50,634 nt of DNA from Fangia hongkongensis FSC776 = DSM 21703 (lineage in GTDB: Bacteria > Pseudomonadota > Gammaproteobacteria > Francisellales > Francisellaceae): NCBI RefSeq assembly GCF_000379445.1, contig NZ_KB902248.1:1-50634 (forward strand). Reading direction: 5' to 3'. The position numbers and the translations under genes were made by a program. The notes under the pieces were generated by a model. It did no database searches and was not told where the DNA came from. It saw only the letters and a program-made list of their open reading frames with translations. Positions within the stretch are counted from its first letter, which is position 1, and every line of letters begins with the position of its first letter. Shown one piece after another: positions 5,862-40,634 of the stretch.

Positions 5862-6230
5862 TTATTTTGCATCCTCATCGATTGTGAAGCTTTCACCGCA
5901 ACCACAACGAGCAGACTCATTTGGATTTTGATACACCAACTGTGAGATACCCAAAGGCTGTTTTACATAATCAATCTTAAGCCCTTGCAGGTATTTTACA
6001 GCACTATTATCCACATATAAATTCACTTTATCTTCCACAAATACACTATGATTATCCGGCACCTGATCAACAGCCTTGATATCATAGGCAAGCCCAGAGC
6101 AACCAGTAGTTGTAACACCAATTGCAATTCCCAAGGCATTTTTTTCTTTTATATATTTCTCAAAATGTTTAAGTGCTGCCTCAGACAGATGCACAATTCG
6201 CTCTAAAGAGGGGTCAAACTTTTCAATCAT
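5862..6230 (-). CDS. A-type iron-sulfur carrier (HesB/IscA/SufA family)
   Basis: Fe-S carrier that passes clusters to apo-proteins. The 122-residue protein has the three invariant cysteines Cys44 (TTGCSG), Cys109 and Cys111 (CGCGESF). It resembles IscA and SufA; ErpA is less likely. I do not assign a specific symbol. A GGTGAG ribosome site precedes the ATG at 6230. It is followed by sufT after 2 bp, and a TetR regulator gene ends 72 bp upstream in the same direction. The gap holds overlapping TACCA/TGGTA palindromes. Confidence 0.9.
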   Translation of the reverse strand: MIEKFDPSLERIVHLSEAALKHFEKYIKEKNALGIAIGVTTTGCSGLAYDIKAVDQVPDNHSVFVEDKVNLYVDNSAVKYLQGLKIDYVKQPLGISQLVYQNPNESARCGCGESFTIDEDAK

Positions 6231-9669: not shown

Positions 9670-10107
9670 CTAACGCAAGCGCTCGCGCTTTTCATCATCG
9701 CCATCATCTTTTTTCACATGCTCACTCTTTTCATGTTCATCATCTGCAACAATTTCTTGATCTTTGCTACGCGCCTTTGTAATCAGCTCATCCATTTTAT
9801 GCCCATAGTTCAGCGAGTCATCATGAATAAACCGAAGTACAGGCGTGATCCTTAAAGAAAGTGATTTGGCAAGCGCTGTTCTAAAAAAGCCTTTTGATGC
9901 ATCAAAAGCCTTGATGATTTCCTGAATCGTATTGGTTTGATTCATTGATGAGAAATACACCTTTGCAGCAGAAAGATCTCGTGATACTTCCACACTAGTA
10001 ACAGAGACCCATTTTAACCTTGGGTCTCTTATTTTCGTGTTCAGAAGTGACTGTATTACTTTTTGAATCTCATCAGAGACTCTCTGTACACGCGCGTTAT
10101 TCGCCAT
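9670..10107 (-). CDS. rbfA: Ribosome-binding factor A (RbfA)
   Basis: Assists maturation of the 30S subunit and 5' processing of 16S rRNA. The 145-residue protein is a KH-like fold with RVSDEIQKVIQSLL near the start, IRDPRLKWVSVTSVEVSRDL in the middle and the LRITPVLRFIHDDS motif. The last 30 residues are a charged Asp/Glu/Lys tail. It begins 2 bp after infB and is the last gene of the rimP-nusA-infB-rbfA operon. Confidence 0.95.
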   Translation of the reverse strand: MANNARVQRVSDEIQKVIQSLLNTKIRDPRLKWVSVTSVEVSRDLSAAKVYFSSMNQTNTIQEIIKAFDASKGFFRTALAKSLSLRITPVLRFIHDDSLNYGHKMDELITKARSKDQEIVADDEHEKSEHVKKDDGDDEKRERLR

Positions 10108-14963: not shown

Positions 14964-15040
<77 letters not shown>

Positions 15041-16583: not shown

Positions 16584-17189
16584 TTAAACGCCACTATGAA
16601 AACGAAACTCATTGTCTTCAGATTCGATTAACTCTTGCTCCAATACTCTAAATCGTTCAATGTGAGGCATAATAGGCTCACTACTATACTCTGTAGCAAA
16701 TTGTAAATAAATGCTGAAATGCCGCCTCTCTGAAGCAAGAAGCCCCTGATAAAATTTCTGTAGCTCTTCATCCAAATGCGGCGCAATTACTGAAAACCTT
16801 TCGCATGATCTTGCTTCAATAAAGGCGCCGATAATAAGCGTATCAACGAGTCTGCCTTCTTCTGAAGTTCTCATAAGCGTTCTGAGTGTTCTGGCATAAC
16901 GAGATTCAGATAAAAGCCGATAGCGAATATTACGTTTTTTTAAAATCGCAAGCACCTGCTCAAAGTGCACGAGCTCCTCTCTGGCAATCTTTGACATTCT
17001 TAATAGAAGATCTGGGTATTCAGTTGACTTTCGATACATAAAGCTAATTGCCGCAGAGGCCGCTTTTTTCTCACAATGCGCATGGTCAATTAATAAAATC
17101 TCTTGATTCTGTAACGCCTTATCTACCCACGCCTTTGGTGTACTGCAAGGCAAAAAACTCTCAATGGTTGCATAATCATGATACTGCAT
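16584..17189 (-). CDS. miaE: tRNA-(ms2io6A37) hydroxylase MiaE
   Basis: Non-haem di-iron monooxygenase that hydroxylates the isopentenyl group of ms2i6A37 in tRNAs. The 201-residue ferritin-like protein has the iron ligand motifs DHAHCEKKAAS, EELVHFEQV, EARSCERF and SERRHF. Length matches the family. It follows purF after 8 bp. miaA, miaB and dioxygen must be available for it to work, which implies aerobic growth. Confidence 0.93.
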   Translation of the reverse strand: MQYHDYATIESFLPCSTPKAWVDKALQNQEILLIDHAHCEKKAASAAISFMYRKSTEYPDLLLRMSKIAREELVHFEQVLAILKKRNIRYRLLSESRYARTLRTLMRTSEEGRLVDTLIIGAFIEARSCERFSVIAPHLDEELQKFYQGLLASERRHFSIYLQFATEYSSEPIMPHIERFRVLEQELIESEDNEFRFHSGV

Positions 17190-17197
17190 TTTTTCTG

Positions 17198-18712
17198 CTA
17201 TTCCTGATTTTGCATATCAATAGAGCCACCCACTCCTTTGCTCTTAGTCTCTTTAGACTCCCTAGCAAGACTAAGCCCATCCAAATAGCGCTGATCAACA
17301 CCACCTGTTATATAGTTTCCATCAAAAACAGAAGTGTCAAAGTGACTAATTTTTGGATTTAGGCATTGAACCGATTTCACAAGGTCTTCATTTGTCTGAT
17401 AAAACAAGTGATCAACACCAATAAAATCGGCAATAGCTTTTATATCCTTTCCATAACCCACAAGTTCACTATGTGTCGGCATGTCAATACCATACACATT
17501 CGGATAGCGAATTACCGGCGCAGTTGATGCAATCGATACTTTCTTAGCGCCAGCCTCCCTTGCCATCTCAACAATAAGCTTTGAAGTATTACCACGAACA
17601 ATTGAGTCATCAACCAGAAGAACATGTTTCCCATCAAACTCATCTGCAATTGTATTTAGCTTCTTACGAATGGATTTTTGCCTTTTCTCCTGATCTGGCA
17701 TAATAAAGGTTCTGCCAACATAACGGTTTTTCACCAAGCCCTCACGATAGGGCACATCGAGCACACGAGAAATTGGCAGCGCAGCATGGCGACCTGAGTC
17801 AGGAACTGGAATAACAACATCAATATCATGATTTGGCATTGTTTGAAGAATACTTTTGGCAAGCCTTCGCCCCATTTCAAGACGAGCGCCATAAACAGAA
17901 ATACCATCAATCACTGAATCAGGTCGCGCTAAATAGACATATTCAAAAATACACGGCGATAAGCTTGCTTTATCTGAGCATACCTTCCTTGTCAGCTTGC
18001 CCTCTAAATCAACAAAAATAGCCTCTCCAGCTTGAATATCATCCACAAACTCATAACCATCACAATCAAGCGCAACTGTTTCTGAGGCCACTATATATTC
18101 AACACCGCCATCGGGAGAGGTTTTTTTCCCAAGCACTAAAGGTCTAATACCGTTTGGGTCACGAAAAGCAAAAAGTCCAGCCCCAGCAATCACGCCGACT
18201 ACGGCATAGCCACCAACACAGCGGTTATAAACCTTTTTCATTGCATCAAAGAAAATATCAATGGAAAAGTCTTTTAATGAGACCCTCGCCTTTGTTAACT
18301 CAGATGCCAATACATTTAATAACAGCTCTGAGTCCGAGCTTGTATTAACATGCCTGTAATCTTTTTCCAATAAATCTTTACGAATTTCTGCCGTGTTAAT
18401 TAAATTTCCATTATGCGCTAAGGCAATACCATAGGGCGAATTGACATAAAATGGCTGCGCCTCAAACTCACTATTAGAGCCTGCCGTTGGGTAGCGAACA
18501 TGCGCAATACCGAGATTCCCTTTAAGTCGCTCCATATGCCTTGCTCGGATGGCATCCACCACCAATCCTTTTGCCTTCCTTAAAGACATATGATAACCGT
18601 CACAAGTTAATATCCCTGCCGCATCCTGACCTCGATGCTGAAGCATTGTTAACGCATCAAAAAGCTTTTGATTTACTTGTGATTTCCCAATAATTCCAAC
18701 CACACCACACAT
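17198..18712 (-). CDS. purF: Amidophosphoribosyltransferase (PurF)
   Basis: First enzyme of de novo purine synthesis, making phosphoribosylamine from PRPP and glutamine. The 504-residue protein begins MCGVVGIIG, with Cys2 as the exposed N-terminal nucleophile of the class II glutaminase domain. The phosphoribosyltransferase domain carries the PRPP loop VLLVDDSIVRGNTSK. Length matches E. coli PurF (505). It is first in a purF-miaE transcript. No PurR-like operator was recognised upstream. Confidence 0.96.
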   Translation of the reverse strand: MCGVVGIIGKSQVNQKLFDALTMLQHRGQDAAGILTCDGYHMSLRKAKGLVVDAIRARHMERLKGNLGIAHVRYPTAGSNSEFEAQPFYVNSPYGIALAHNGNLINTAEIRKDLLEKDYRHVNTSSDSELLLNVLASELTKARVSLKDFSIDIFFDAMKKVYNRCVGGYAVVGVIAGAGLFAFRDPNGIRPLVLGKKTSPDGGVEYIVASETVALDCDGYEFVDDIQAGEAIFVDLEGKLTRKVCSDKASLSPCIFEYVYLARPDSVIDGISVYGARLEMGRRLAKSILQTMPNHDIDVVIPVPDSGRHAALPISRVLDVPYREGLVKNRYVGRTFIMPDQEKRQKSIRKKLNTIADEFDGKHVLLVDDSIVRGNTSKLIVEMAREAGAKKVSIASTAPVIRYPNVYGIDMPTHSELVGYGKDIKAIADFIGVDHLFYQTNEDLVKSVQCLNPKISHFDTSVFDGNYITGGVDQRYLDGLSLARESKETKSKGVGGSIDMQNQE

Positions 18713-18896
18713 AATGCACTTGCCATACTATTTATCTAGATTTCAGGTGTGCTAGTTTACCAAAAAAAACTGCATTGTTGAGGTTTTTTTGGTCATATGC
18801 TTCAAAGTTAAAATAGAAAATATAAAATACACACGTAAATATAATTATAAAATGTCAAATCAATGCGTAATTTCACTTTTAATTTCATTTATTACA

Positions 18897-18905
18897 TGCT
18901 ATAAC
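18897..18905 (+). promoter_or_regulatory. Extended -10 promoter of the protease leader
   Basis: TGCTATAAC is an extended -10 element (TGn plus a 5/6 match to TATAAT). The -35 is weak (TTTTAA at 18877-18882, 17 bp upstream). Transcription would start near 18912, exactly where the first stable hairpin begins. Confidence 0.5.
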
Positions 18906-18913
18906 AATTAATC

Positions 18914-18937
18914 CTAGCAGTCACGAATGACAGCTAG
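18914..18937 (+). other. Leader hairpin H1
   Basis: CTAGC (18914-18918) pairs with GCTAG (18933-18937). An A-A mismatch follows, then GTCA pairs with TGAC around a CGAA tetraloop. It sits at the predicted 5' end of the protease transcript and may protect the end or act in regulation. Confidence 0.6.
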
Positions 18938-18944
18938 TGAAGGA

Positions 18945-18994
18945 ATGTTGTGAAAGGTTACAGCACATCCTGTGATGTAACACAGACACAACAT
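18945..18994 (+). other. Leader hairpin H2 (three nested helices)
   Basis: ATGTTGTG (18945-18952) pairs perfectly with CACAACAT (18987-18994). Inside, GTTACA (18957-18962) pairs with TGTAAC (18976-18981). At the top CACA (18964-18967) pairs with TGTG (18971-18974) around a 3-nt loop. Eighteen Watson-Crick pairs in 50 nt are far beyond chance. It ends just before the purine-rich ribosome site of the 40-codon ORF. Confidence 0.65.
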
Positions 18995-19027
18995 AGAGAA
19001 AGGAAAAGGAAAGGAGAAGTACCCCCC

Positions 19028-19150
19028 ATGAAAAAAGTAATACTATCAACCATTGCAGCCTCACTTGCGTTAAACCAAAAAGCCTCGGCACAATTTTCAT
19101 TCGCCGAGAAGCAAAGGGAACAAAATACAAGCTCAAGTAGTTTTTGGTAG
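19028..19150 (+). CDS. 40-residue signal-peptide-like small protein (possible leader peptide)
   Basis: The ATG at 19028 follows a long purine tract with GGAG about 11 nt upstream. The product starts MKKVILSTIAASLALNQKAS and has the shape of a Sec signal peptide: two Lys, a hydrophobic core and an AxA-like site, ASA, at 19-21. A mature part of only 19 residues (QFSF...SSSSFW) ends in Phe-Trp. I recognise no family. It lies in the same leader as, and 260 nt before, the secreted M4 protease. It could be a secreted peptide, a secretion-monitoring leader peptide (SecM/VemP-like in concept only), or a truncated exported gene. An in-frame GTG at 18950 is unlikely because it lies in hairpin H2. Confidence 0.55.
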   Translation: MKKVILSTIAASLALNQKASAQFSFAEKQREQNTSSSSFW

Positions 19151-19152
19151 CC

Positions 19153-19192
19153 CTAGCTTAAACTTATCAAGCGTCATAAGGTTAGTTGCTAG
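19153..19192 (+). other. Leader hairpin H3
   Basis: CTAGC (19153-19157) pairs with GCTAG (19188-19192). TTAA (19158-19161) pairs with TTAG (19182-19185, one G-U), and CTTAT (19163-19167) pairs with ATAAG (19176-19180) around the loop CAAGCGTC. The bottom stem has the same sequence as that of H1, so strands of the two could exchange partners. It starts two bases after the stop of the small ORF. Confidence 0.6.
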
Positions 19193-19213
19193 AGTACATT
19201 TTGCACTCAAAGA

Positions 19214-19254
19214 CACTACCCTAAGGCCTAACTCAAAATCGAAGGAATATAGTG
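19214..19254 (+). other. Weak leader hairpin H4
   Basis: CACTA (19214-19218) can pair with TAGTG (19250-19254), enclosing CCT/AGG. This is the least certain of the leader helices. Confidence 0.3.
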
Positions 19255-19268
19255 AGTCATAACTTGCC

Positions 19269-19354
19269 TACCAAGAAGGACGGCTAAGGCCACGTATTTA
19301 ATAGACAGTATGACAAATCTATCATGCAGTCAGATACCCTACGTAATCTTGGTA
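19269..19354 (+). other. Leader multi-helix domain H5
   Basis: TACCAAGA (19269-19276) pairs perfectly with TCTTGGTA (19347-19354). It encloses a small GGC/GCC hairpin (19282-19291) and a helix ACGTA (19292-19296) with TACGT (19340-19344). Inside is a long hairpin GTATGA/TCATGC extended by GAC/GTC across an A-A mismatch (19304-19331, 8-nt loop). The closed branched fold ends 56 nt before the protease start. It resembles an aptamer or cis-regulatory RNA in layout, but no known riboswitch class was recognised. Confidence 0.55.
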
Positions 19355-19410
19355 AAACAGATTTATAGGTTATTGCATGACCAGATCACAACCAATAGGA
19401 AAGGAAAAAA

Positions 19411-21114
19411 ATGAAGTTGAAAAAGAGTATTATATTAAGTTTTAGTTTTAGCCTATTAACTGCTGGAGCCTATGCTACGGAAAAGGTTAATTTAACTAAT
19501 GCACCTATCGACGATTTGCAAGGTTTTCATCTACAAATGAATCAGGAAAATGGTGCAAATACCATGTTGATGACAACACCACAAACAAATACTTTAAATC
19601 AAATATCTCAATCCAATTTAGCAGGCATTAACTATGAGCGCTATCAGCAGTATTACAAAGGAATCAAAGTGATAGGCGCCCAAATTACGATTGCTAAAAG
19701 AGGCCAAAAGAGCCTTTTATTAACCACTAATGAGGATAAAGCTAACGGTGAAGTAATCAAAAATATTAGCCTTGACACTAGCCCAAGCATTTCAGCACAA
19801 TACGCAATCTCTCATTCTTTAACCGTTTACAATCAGAATGCTAAGGGTTATCAGGTTAATTACTTAAATGGTAATGCGCCCAGTGCCAAGTTGCAAATTA
19901 TTATGGATAATAAACAGCCAAAACTAATTTACCAAGTGCAATTCCTAGCACAAAAGGCAAACAATCAACCACAGGCTATGCGTTATTATGTTGATGCAAA
20001 GACTGGAGAAATTATAACAAGCTGGGACAATATTCAAAATTTTGAAGATACAGGACCAGGAGGCAATGAAAAAGTACATGAATATTGGTATGGTCAGCAA
20101 GGGATGCCTTCTTTAGATGTCACACAACAAGGCACAACCTGCACAATGGAAAACATACGCGTCCGAACCGTCGATTTACAGCAAACGCAGGACGACACGA
20201 CCACTCCTTATAGTTATACTTGCGGCATGAACACCGGACAAGATGAAATTAATGGCGCCTATTCTGCAATCAATGATGCACACTATTTTGGCGATATAAT
20301 TATCGATATGTATAAGGAATGGTATGGCATTGATGCACTAACTGCAAACAATGAAGCAATGCAATTAGTTATGCGTGTACATTATGGCAGTAATTATGAC
20401 AACGCTTTTTGGTATAATGGGAATATGACCTTTGGTGATGGCAATAGCCTCTACCCACTTGTGTCTTTAGACGTAGCCGGTCATGAAGTGAGTCATGGAT
20501 TTACTGAACAACATTCAGGCCTTGTTTATACCAACCAGTCAGGTTCTTTAAATGAAGCTTTTTCAGATATGGCAGGACAGGCCGTTAGAGCCTATTTGCT
20601 TAGTCAAGATGAAAGCAATTATGCAAAGTTTTATCCAGAAGACCCAGAAGGGCAAATTGGCTGGGGTATCGGTGAAACCATCATGAAAGGTGATGGAGCC
20701 CTACGCTATATGAACAACCCCTCGCAAGATGGTATTTCAGCAGATTGCTATGATCCTTCGCTTGACGGCGCACTCGCATGTGAAATTAGTTATCGAAAAA
20801 TGCTTATAAAATCACGTGGAGACCAATCATATATTGTTCATACAGGCAGCGGTGTATTTAATAAAGCATTTTATTTATTAGCAAGCACATGGGCTTCTAA
20901 CAATCAAACTCAGGGCTTATCGAATCAGTACGCCGAAGGCGTGAAAGAGGCTTTTCATATAATGGTATTAGCGAATGTGAAATATTGGACACCTTCAGTA
21001 AAGTTTTCGCAAGCAGCTTGTGGTGTAATCTATGCCGCTAAAGATCTTAACTATTCAACAGCTGATGTTGCACAAGCATTTACAAAAGTTGGCGTTAGCA
21101 CCTCTAACTGCTAA
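19411..21114 (+). CDS. Secreted M4-family (thermolysin-like) zinc metalloprotease precursor
   Basis: The 567-residue precursor has a Sec signal peptide (cleavage likely after AYA, residue 22), an FTP/PepSY-type propeptide to about residue 220 and a mature thermolysin-like domain. The zinc site is HEVSH (358-362) with the third ligand Glu382 in GSLNEAFSD. The second catalytic His477 is in HTGSGVFNKAF. Six cysteines lie in the mature part (244, 271, 446, 457, 537, 567). The first and last pairs are spaced like the two disulfides of pseudolysin/vibriolysin. It lacks a C-terminal PPC domain. Probably exported by type II secretion and autoprocessed, by family analogy. An AGGAAAGGA ribosome site precedes the ATG. 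Its leader is unusually structured. Confidence 0.95.
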   Translation: MKLKKSIILSFSFSLLTAGAYATEKVNLTNAPIDDLQGFHLQMNQENGANTMLMTTPQTNTLNQISQSNLAGINYERYQQYYKGIKVIGAQITIAKRGQKSLLLTTNEDKANGEVIKNISLDTSPSISAQYAISHSLTVYNQNAKGYQVNYLNGNAPSAKLQIIMDNKQPKLIYQVQFLAQKANNQPQAMRYYVDAKTGEIITSWDNIQNFEDTGPGGNEKVHEYWYGQQGMPSLDVTQQGTTCTMENIRVRTVDLQQTQDDTTTPYSYTCGMNTGQDEINGAYSAINDAHYFGDIIIDMYKEWYGIDALTANNEAMQLVMRVHYGSNYDNAFWYNGNMTFGDGNSLYPLVSLDVAGHEVSHGFTEQHSGLVYTNQSGSLNEAFSDMAGQAVRAYLLSQDESNYAKFYPEDPEGQIGWGIGETIMKGDGALRYMNNPSQDGISADCYDPSLDGALACEISYRKMLIKSRGDQSYIVHTGSGVFNKAFYLLASTWASNNQTQGLSNQYAEGVKEAFHIMVLANVKYWTPSVKFSQAACGVIYAAKDLNYSTADVAQAFTKVGVSTSNC

Positions 21115-21177
21115 ATACTGCTCTATAGCAAACTGAATACCTGTTCATATAAACAACACACCTATCTTATATTTTCA

Positions 21178-21197
21178 GCTCTGCTTTGATGCAGAGC
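21178..21197 (+). terminator. Possible terminator after the metalloprotease
   Basis: GCTCTGC and GCAGAGC form a perfect 7-bp stem with a 6-nt loop, 64 bp past the protease stop. The T-run is imperfect (GTCATATTTT), so efficiency is uncertain. Confidence 0.5.
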
Positions 21198-21266
21198 GTC
21201 ATATTTTCCGAAGCTAAATAGCGTTTATTCATTGTTCAATGAATCATCAAATCCTTTAAATACCTT

Positions 21267-21884
21267 TTAAAGCAGTTTATTTAGCTGGGCTTCAATCTCT
21301 AAAGATACCTTTTCTAAAGGCTGACCTGCATCGATCAATACAGCTTGCTGTGGATTTTCCCTTACAAGCGCTATGAAAATAGCGCGCGCACGCTCAAAAA
21401 AGCTTAATTTCTCTTGCTCAATTCGATCAAGCGCGCTTCGCCTCTTAGCACGTAACAGTCCTTTTTGAGGATCAATATCTAAATAAATGGTTAAATCCGG
21501 TTTAATATCAGATAGCAATAAATCATTTAAGGCGCTTACCTTCTGGTAGCCTATTTCTCTTCCGCCACCTTGATAGGCCAAAGATGACCAATTAAAGCGA
21601 TCACAAACAATCCATTTATTACTCCTTAGCGCAGGTTTAATCAATCTCTCAACATGCTGCATCCTAGAGGCATACATTAGAAGAAGCTCTGCTTCAGAAC
21701 AAAGCGCCTCCTCTTGATAAGGGGTAATAAGAAGCTCTCTTATTTTCTCAGCCAAAAAAGTTCCACCAGGTTCACGCGTATAACAGGCATTAATACCTCT
21801 TTGCTCTAAAAATGCTTTAACGACTGAAACAGCGGTACTTTTTCCTGCACCTTCCAAGCCTTCAATAACAATAAACTTACTCAT
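21267..21884 (-). CDS. tmk: Thymidylate kinase (Tmk)
   Basis: Phosphorylates dTMP to dTDP. I start it at the ATG at 21884 (205 residues), which begins MSKFIVIEGLEGAGKST in the family position. An open frame runs further upstream but would overlap deoC. Motifs are the P-loop GLEGAGKST, the DR motif in VCDRFNWSSLAYQG and the TREPGGT segment. The start lies 4 bp after the deoC stop. Co-transcription with deoB and deoC puts dTTP synthesis next to deoxynucleoside salvage. Confidence 0.94.
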   Translation of the reverse strand: MSKFIVIEGLEGAGKSTAVSVVKAFLEQRGINACYTREPGGTFLAEKIRELLITPYQEEALCSEAELLLMYASRMQHVERLIKPALRSNKWIVCDRFNWSSLAYQGGGREIGYQKVSALNDLLLSDIKPDLTIYLDIDPQKGLLRAKRRSALDRIEQEKLSFFERARAIFIALVRENPQQAVLIDAGQPLEKVSLEIEAQLNKLL

Positions 21885-33637: not shown

Positions 33638-35050
33638 TTACGCTTCAGATTTAATTTTGTTAATAATATAACTCGTTGAATAATTCGGCTTTAAATCTAT
33701 TGTTTTGACTTCTCCGCCATTTTCGATCACCTCTTTTGCCCCCGCAATTTCATTCACTTCATAATCAGCCCCTTTCACCAGTATATCTGGCAAAACTTCT
33801 GAAATAAGCCTTTGCGGGGTATCTTCAGAAAAGGCAACAACCCAGTCAACACATTGAAGCGCACTTAAGACTTCCATCCTTGCCTCAAGTGGAACAACAG
33901 GTCTTGTACTTCCCTTAAGCCTTGTTACAGACTCATCTGTATTGACAGCGACAATGAGCCGATCTCCAAGAGATCTGGCTTTTTGTAAATACTCAACATG
34001 GCCAGCATGTAAAATATCAAAGCAACCATTTGTCATAACCACTTTTTCACCCTGAAGGTGAACTTCTTTCATCGCTGTTAATAACTCTTTTTGCGAGAGG
34101 ACGCCATGGGCAAAAGCACTTTGCTCATCAAGCGCATCATGAAGCTCATTTATATTGACTGTTGCCGTTCCTACTTTACCAACAACAACACTGGCCGCAG
34201 CATTAGCAAGACGCATAGCAGATAAATAATCATAACCGACTGAAATGGCCATAGCCATCACCGCAATAACAGTATCACCTGCACCGGTAACATCATAAAC
34301 TTCTTTGGCTATCGTTGGAATATGCTCATAAGTGCCATCATGGCGGATGAAACTCATCCCCTCAGCGCTTCTTGTTACCAAAATTCCATCAAGTTCAAGT
34401 GCCTTTGCCAATTCAGCTCCCTTGTCAATAATATCTTTTTCTGTATGACACTTACCAACAACAAGCTCAAACTCTTTTCGATTTGGCGTAATAACACTAG
34501 CACCTTTATAGCGCGAAAAATCATTGCCTTTTGGGTCAACAAATATTTTAATGTCTTTCTTTTTGGCAAGCTTAATAATACTTTGCGGGTCACTTAAAGT
34601 CCCCTTACCATAATCTGACAAAACCATCGTATTATAGCCGCTAGATGTATCAATAAAATCGAGTATCTTAGCTTTATCTTCACTTAAAAAATTCTCTTCA
34701 AAATCAACACGTATCAACTGCTGCTTTTGTGACAGTACGCGCACCTTGGTAATTGTTGGTTTATCTGTTTTGATAAAATGCTGATCTATATTCTCATCAG
34801 ATAGAATGCGTGCTAAATCATGTGCTTCTGCATCATCACCGACCATCGAGCAAATAGACGCCTTTGCACTCAAAGAGGCAACATTAAGCGCCACATTTCC
34901 TGCGCCTCCTGCTCGATTTTGAATGGATTTCACATGCACAACCGGCACTGGCGCTTCGGGGGAAATACGCTCAGTTGAGCCATTATAATAACGATCGAGC
35001 ATGATATCCCCGACAACCAACACTTTTGCATGTGATAGATTATGTTGCAT
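33638..35050 (-). CDS. hldE: Bifunctional heptose-7-phosphate kinase / heptose-1-phosphate adenylyltransferase (HldE)
   Basis: Makes ADP-D-beta-D-heptose for the LPS inner core. I place the start at the ATG at 35050 (470 residues); AAGGG lies about 8 nt upstream. An upstream in-frame ATG at 35092 adds 14 residues with no family match. The N-terminal ribokinase-type domain has GGAGNVALNVA and the GAGDTV anion hole. The C-terminal nucleotidyltransferase domain starts MTNGCFDILHAGHVEYLQKA with its HxGH motif. Both halves are present. Confidence 0.95.
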   Translation of the reverse strand: MQHNLSHAKVLVVGDIMLDRYYNGSTERISPEAPVPVVHVKSIQNRAGGAGNVALNVASLSAKASICSMVGDDAEAHDLARILSDENIDQHFIKTDKPTITKVRVLSQKQQLIRVDFEENFLSEDKAKILDFIDTSSGYNTMVLSDYGKGTLSDPQSIIKLAKKKDIKIFVDPKGNDFSRYKGASVITPNRKEFELVVGKCHTEKDIIDKGAELAKALELDGILVTRSAEGMSFIRHDGTYEHIPTIAKEVYDVTGAGDTVIAVMAMAISVGYDYLSAMRLANAAASVVVGKVGTATVNINELHDALDEQSAFAHGVLSQKELLTAMKEVHLQGEKVVMTNGCFDILHAGHVEYLQKARSLGDRLIVAVNTDESVTRLKGSTRPVVPLEARMEVLSALQCVDWVVAFSEDTPQRLISEVLPDILVKGADYEVNEIAGAKEVIENGGEVKTIDLKPNYSTSYIINKIKSEA

Positions 35051-40504: not shown

Positions 40505-40604
40505 AAGCTTTTAAAGGATCTTAAGAGCTTCACATACCCAAATATCAACAAGCGTTTTTGTTGCCCTCTTGCTTACCCATAGCATACAGATATGGGAAAT
40601 AAGC
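40505..40604 (+). promoter_or_regulatory. gltB leader with two hairpins
   Basis: AAGCTTTTAA (40505-40514) pairs with TTAAGAGCTT (40521-40530, one G-U) over a 6-nt loop. A second nested hairpin is CCCATA/TATGGG (40576-40581 with 40591-40596), extended by GCTT/AAGC (40571-40574 with 40601-40604). Neither is followed by a T-run. The first may instead be a DNA operator. Function unknown. Confidence 0.4.
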
Positions 40605-40634
40605 GGGATAAAGCAAAAAGCATTAAGGAGTAAT

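Follow-up and report, generated by a model that had tools for sequence, protein, structure and literature searches.

In the leader of Escherichia coli ompA, a gene for an exported product, stable hairpins at the 5' end are followed by a purine-rich ribosome-site stretch. Stem-loops of this 5'-terminal type reportedly stabilize mRNA in E. coli (PMC2777011). A second kind of arrangement is found in the secretion monitors SecM, MifM, VemP, ApcA, ApdA and ApdP, which are small open reading frames (ORFs) with an export signal that precede a co-oriented gene. The criteria of one search for such monitors are a length of 80-200 residues, more than 40 residues beyond the signal up to the last residue of the arrest sequence, and a C-terminal sequence that is conserved among homologues (PMC7897499). 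The CutF leader (cutFOG) of Rhodobacter capsulatus combines a small exported ORF with RNA structure before an exported enzyme, and a leader of this kind is expected to have a stem-loop that shields the ribosome site downstream. In the published filter for CutF-like proteins, a PP motif is expected in the last 15 residues and most gaps are < 100 nt (PMC9973294).

Here we analyze the DNA upstream of a secreted M4 metalloprotease gene of Fangia hongkongensis (source genome, 2.95 Mb) within a stretch of 50,634 nucleotides, referred to as the window, whose numbering is used throughout. The DNA from the promoter candidate to the protease start is called the leader. In the accessible text of the literature found on thermolysin-like proteases, the Cysteiniphilum metalloprotease and Fangia, such a leader is named nowhere. 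The leader is real as a structure and, within the scope of our searches, an orphan in distribution; the function that we propose for it is putative. It is better read as an upstream region particular to this lineage than as a new class of sensor. If it controlled the protease, it would provide compact, lineage-specific timing of protease secretion in a family close to Francisella that has been little studied. For now its main worth is as a caution, in that a pair of good hairpins plus a signal-peptide ORF does not suffice to infer a sensor when the closest protease-bearing relatives are without the leader. The features of the locus are as follows.

17198-18712, divergent from the protease: gene that we take to be purF, with Pfam glutamine amidotransferase and phosphoribosyltransferase domains (the name is ours; Pfam shows the domains only)
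18897-18905, + strand: extended -10-like site TGCTATAAC, read directly from the DNA; transcription would start at about 18911
18912-18940, + strand: hairpin H1, also a DNA dyad at 18914-18937
18945-18994, + strand: hairpin H2, with an 8-bp outer stem and an inner stem that contains GTTACA/TGTAAC
19028-19150, + strand: 40-codon ORF, a predicted signal peptide plus 19 residues
19266-19356, + strand: H5 region, with the 8-bp outer helix TACCAAGA/TCTTGGTA and an inner hairpin at 19304-19331
19411-21114, + strand: secreted M4 metalloprotease gene (Pfam FTP, PepSY, M4 and M4_C)
21178-21197, + strand: intrinsic-terminator-like hairpin 3' of the protease gene, from a terminator scan of 18700-21400

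The locus resembles ompA in having stable hairpins where the 5' end is presumed to lie, a purine-rich ribosome-site stretch and an exported product downstream, a likeness of layout only for which no sequence relation is claimed. Like the secretion monitors, it has a small export-signal ORF that precedes a co-oriented gene. It differs from them in that the ORF has 40 residues as opposed to 80-200, of which 19 follow the predicted signal as opposed to more than 40 (PMC7897499), the downstream gene is not sec or yidC, and the genomes searched yielded no homologue of the ORF that would show a conserved C-terminus. As in the CutF leader, a small exported ORF and RNA structure precede an exported enzyme. 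However, the 40-residue product contains no proline and hence no PP motif, the protease ribosome site is not clearly shielded, and the gap spans 260 nt where most are < 100 nt (PMC9973294).

Folding and the putative 5' end of the transcript

Hairpin stability was expressed as z-scores against dinucleotide-preserving shuffles, and hairpin limits were fitted after an unconstrained fold; the first-pass annotation of this DNA, which had listed four strong hairpins, gave no coordinates for them. With fitted limits, H1 (18912-18944) has a z-score of -3.4, with 7 of 1000 shuffles as stable and a mean pair probability of 0.90. H2 (18943-18995) has a z-score of -3.9 (3/1000 shuffles) and mean pair probabilities of 0.98 and 0.95 in its stems, although trimming it to 18945-18992 leaves only z -2.3 (28/1000). 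Folded together (18910-19000), H1 and H2 reach z -5.0, which none of 1000 shuffles matched. The 91-nt H5 region (19266-19356) also exceeded all 1000 of its shuffles (z -3.5), while its inner hairpin alone (19305-19332) gave z -1.95 and 42/1000. H3 is no better than chance, whether it is bounded at 19181-19236 (z +0.47; 642/1000 shuffles as stable), at 19176-19240 (z -0.24; 371/1000) or as in another version (z +0.46). Folding is likewise unexceptional in the ORF stretch 19000-19150 (z +0.7; 224 of 300 shuffles) and in the spacer 19151-19405 (z -1.3; 36 of 300), and the entire stretch 18910-19410 has z -2.2, with one shuffle in 100 as stable. Of the four strong hairpins, H1 and H2 therefore stand as strong, H5 is moderate (z -3.5) and H3 is unsupported (z +0.5).

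A fairer yardstick is an unfitted scan of 1117 + strand tiles of 90 nt. The H1/H2 tile (18895-18984; z -3.3) comes sixth of the 1117, and the H5 tile (19255-19344; z -1.7) comes 113th. Folding of H1/H2 quality is rare in the window, but not unique.

The five + strand tiles that fold better than the H1/H2 tile lie at 1075-1164, 5935-6024, 9985-10074, 33925-34014 and 40540-40629; their z-scores range from -3.5 to -4.6, four of them being below -4.2. The leader also contains a 15-nt direct repeat (87% identical) at 18939 and 19241 together with four weak inverted repeats, none of which shows a sign of a mobile element. We considered H5 as a transcription attenuator and rejected it, there being no + strand terminator-like site at that position.

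The extended -10-like site at 18897-18905 is plausible as a promoter. Sites of its type, TGnTATAA[TC], occur eight times in the window, counting both strands. The site TGCTATAAC is absent from the promoter-scan list, the scan being one that requires a -35 hexamer.

Our best explanation, put forward tentatively and with a little less than even confidence, is that the leader is the upstream part, particular to this lineage, of a single transcription unit, with probably protective 5' hairpins and a tiny ORF that is dispensable or a relic. A promoter near 18900 would start transcription, which would place H1 and H2 at the 5' end of the transcript, ahead of the small exported-type ORF. By analogy with the ompA leader, H1 and H2 probably shield the mRNA 5' end, and they would do so as a generic element against 5'-end-dependent mRNA decay. 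The ORF would give rise to a tiny exported peptide of little importance, or would be the start of a lost gene. After it would come the 260-nt spacer, with some further structure, and then the M4 protease, presumably co-transcribed with the leader and translated independently from its own ribosome site and start. What computation shows in this explanation is that the hairpins are non-random, that the ORF starts like a signal peptide, that homologues are lacking within the search scope and that no terminator-like site separates the ORF from the protease. In its favor, H1 and H2 (z -5.0) begin close to the transcription start that the -10-like site would set. It loses from the proposed 5' end depending on a type of site with eight occurrences in the window, from H1 and H2 being equally good as DNA dyads, and from H5 having no role in it.

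The 40-codon ORF and the possible decay of an exported gene

The ORF at 19028-19150 encodes MKKVILSTIAASLALNQKASA up to the cleavage site that we predict and QFSFAEKQREQNTSSSSFW beyond it. Its ribosome site, AAGGAG at 19011-19016, is separated from the ATG by 11 nt, which is rather long. The signal peptide was judged by a rule of our own, namely two positive residues, a 10-residue uncharged hydrophobic stretch and a small-x-small cleavage motif, and by this rule the ORF looks like a true signal-peptide start. It is the sole such ORF of 25-80 codons on either strand of the window. Among 3000 shuffled leaders, one contained a signal-peptide-like ORF with a ribosome site, and 16 did when the ribosome site was not demanded. 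These counts support the signal-peptide character of the ORF, which the first-pass annotation had described together with its ribosome site.

Codon usage of the ORF is ambiguous, since 1.5% of real coding chunks score this low and 14% of wrong-frame chunks score this high. A tblastn search of 30 family genomes for homologues returned the ORF itself and one match with an E-value of 0.27 inside a 570-codon frame; in 369 genomes of the class, the ORF itself was accompanied by one match with an E-value of 0.033 and an internal stop. Neither the ORF nor the overlapping frame at 19077-19262 matched a Pfam family. The single NCBIfam match of the ORF, to the beginning of a bacteriocin-like model, has an E-value of 0.1 and 12.9 bits against a cut-off of 40, and we take it as a resemblance between signal peptides.

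A possible though unlikely alternative is that the promoter, the hairpins and the signal-peptide start are the head of an exported gene, since lost, that formerly preceded the protease, with an eroded spacer and no regulatory role. A signal-peptide-like start is rarely given by chance, yet only 19 residues follow it here, and its poor codon use and the want of a family above cut-off or a convincing homologue in the searches above would suit a relic. The spacer has a coding-like G+C content of 38.5%. Against this alternative, Pfam and NCBIfam searches recognized no protein remnant in the overlapping open frame at 19077-19262, whose length of 62 codons is unexceptional (202 of 1000 shuffles reach 61) and whose codon score resembles those of wrong frames. 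The folding of H1/H2 and H5 also exceeds what a decaying gene would need. Base composition in general is of little help. By limits that we set ourselves, the leader parts have 38.5-42.0% G+C, the adjoining 18713-18896 has 25.5% and the Cysteiniphilum leaders have 30%; other stretches outside genes range from 27.6 to 42%, so the leader is not distinctive, and its G+C content weakly suggests transcribed or once-coding DNA.

The position of the protease gene is in keeping with a decayed gene. Among 12 purF loci compared, with flanks of up to 1.5 kb of which some end at contig ends, the protease adjoins purF in the source genome only, and the neighborhood has therefore been rearranged. A gene corresponding to 16584-17189 lies near purF in 10 of the 12 loci.

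Relatives of the protease and of its leader

The Pfam domains FTP, PepSY, M4 and M4_C confirm the first-pass assignment of the downstream gene as an M4 protease. The product resembles Legionella ProA, matching the NCBIfam model NF045902 over most of its length; it scores 353 bits against a curated cut-off of 900, and is thus related to ProA but not the same named protein. Matches to the protease with an E-value of 0.001 or better were found in 8 of the 51 genomes searched, and three of the six Cysteiniphilum genomes (g4) contain a protease that is 80-81% identical. A second M4 protease in the source genome (L015, G000:C13:239712-241475) is a paralogue with 52% identity.

The first-pass annotation had recognized no known riboswitch or leader family here, and Rfam 15 assigned none to the leader: at gathering thresholds, it returned only a 16S rRNA (1-260) and a tRNA (14967-15040) from the whole window. 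With permissive E-values, 18715-19430 yielded two eukaryotic snoRNA/scaRNA matches, both on the - strand and far under threshold. A DNA search of the source genome with the leader gave no second match. Nine of 30 family genomes matched the leader DNA at an E-value of 0.1 or better, one being the source itself and the remaining eight matching over only 23-25 nt. Searches with 18720-19410 of plasmid and phage records, and with the exact 30-nt H2 pattern of viral contigs, gave no result. Covariance models of H1+H2 and of H5, which are weak in that each was built from one sequence entered twice, were run against the 30 family genomes; the former found itself and four matches with E-values of 4.2-5.6, and the latter found only itself. 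As far as these searches extend, the leader looks like a lineage-specific orphan, with no homologue found in which compensatory changes might be seen.

The leader was compared with seven regions upstream of related proteases, belonging to three Cysteiniphilum orthologues, three other family proteases and the paralogue. The set leaves out the region upstream of the match in genome G001 (L018; 37-38% identity in two pieces) and a Pseudoalteromonas locus (L047; 41%). The best local scores were those of the Cysteiniphilum regions, which are still within chance, since 12, 17 and 23 of 200 shuffles did as well; with the other four regions, the count was 40-199 of 200. In the final 235 nt upstream of the protease start, none of the seven regions is significantly structured (z -1.2 to +0.4). 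As far as was searched, the protease elsewhere manages without such a leader, the three Cysteiniphilum orthologues being an example.

The Cysteiniphilum orthologues have a common 300-nt upstream region of their own (L044:2700-3000, L045:685-985 and L046:2700-3000), which is 91-95% identical and so exceeds the identity at four-fold sites (84-89%). Alignment columns 57-123 are invariant in all three sequences. This region is possibly a control region in its own right, judging from its sequence conservation. Its RNA folds no better than chance, and in these Cysteiniphilum leaders, which are not homologous to the leader described here, none of 87 predicted pairs has both sides changed.

Upstream sequences also bear on the reading of H1 and H2 as DNA operators, that is, as dyads at and just after the transcription start that would bind a repressor and would not act as RNA. 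We consider this quite unlikely. H1 and H2 are near-perfect DNA palindromes, but the source genome holds no second copy of the H1 dyad or of the H2 inner dyad at up to three mismatches. Half sites of the form TGTAAC/GTTACA or TGTWACA do occur upstream of the protease in six of the eight genes compared. The motif TGTWACA was spotted by eye and tested afterwards; it exceeds shuffles most clearly in Cyst_G008 (1/500), Cyst_G003 (4/500) and g3_G010 (4/500). It is weak in g3_G007 (30/500), Cyst_G011 (43/500) and the window (57/500) and absent from g3_G002 and the paralogue, and the Cysteiniphilum regions, being nearly identical, are not independent.

The half sites themselves are located at 18957-18981 in the window and in the upstream regions L011-L014 and L016, and form a candidate shared operator.

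Transcription and translation of the protease

No + strand terminator-like site lies between the 40-codon ORF and the protease in the scan of 18700-21400, the first being the one at 21178-21197, and this is compatible with a common transcript of leader and protease. The spacer contains a promoter-like site (19298-19325) with 9 of 12 matches, and the protease may have its own promoter there; the site is of chance quality, the scan having found eight promoter-like sites where 8.7 were expected.

The first-pass annotation suggested a cis-acting leader RNA, possibly one in which translating or secreting the small peptide would govern the protease by way of RNA structure. We regard this peptide-dependent form of regulation as very unlikely. 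The layout is suggestive, and a partition function for 18910-19510 predicts that 19037-19054 in the ORF pairs in a long-range helix with 19410-19433 at the protease start, with a probability of about 0.9. The start codon is paired at 0.61-0.92 in seven of eight transcript lengths, and a ribosome modelled on the first ORF codons reduces this to 0.57-0.64 from 0.90. However, pairing of the start codon falls to 0.38 when the transcript extends to the gene end, and binding of the leader to the start region is at the level of shuffles: equal or stronger binding was seen for 405 of 1000 shuffles of the leader, 550 of 1000 shuffles of the start region and 79 of 1000 shuffles confined to 19000-19150. 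Across the ribosome-site stretch 19397-19404, mean pairing is 0.36-0.56 over the eight transcript lengths, with a partner that is not above shuffles. The protease start has the weakest pairing of 27 rows (26 gene starts of the window, one listed twice), a rough comparison in that the other starts have coding sequence upstream. Sensing of the secretion of the peptide in particular is not supported, given the 19 residues after the predicted signal peptide where more than 40 are expected, the 260-nt gap and the pairing at chance level, and conservation of the arrangement was not found in the searched genomes.

We rejected a translation switch based on the long-range pairing of ORF and protease start, which does not exceed that of shuffles. 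In a narrower, model-based form, initiation at the 40-codon ORF would open the helix over the protease start, as a micro-leader of this lineage alone. This is extremely improbable; if true, it would couple protease synthesis to the cell's use of the signal-peptide ORF.

An independent small RNA, or a short mRNA encoding the exported peptide, that ends before the protease would have its own promoter-like site and 5' hairpins, but it is highly improbable given that no + strand terminator-like site precedes the protease and that neither an Rfam family nor a copy elsewhere in the searched genomes was found. The explanation that we prefer, a lineage-specific upstream region transcribed together with the protease, would leave the protease to be translated from its own start.

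On the opposite strand, the terminator scan gave several hits in the same DNA. Six of its 10 terminator-like hits are on the - strand within the leader (19008-19027 and 19280-19293), and five of these six overlap as versions of a single site at the C run that precedes the ORF.
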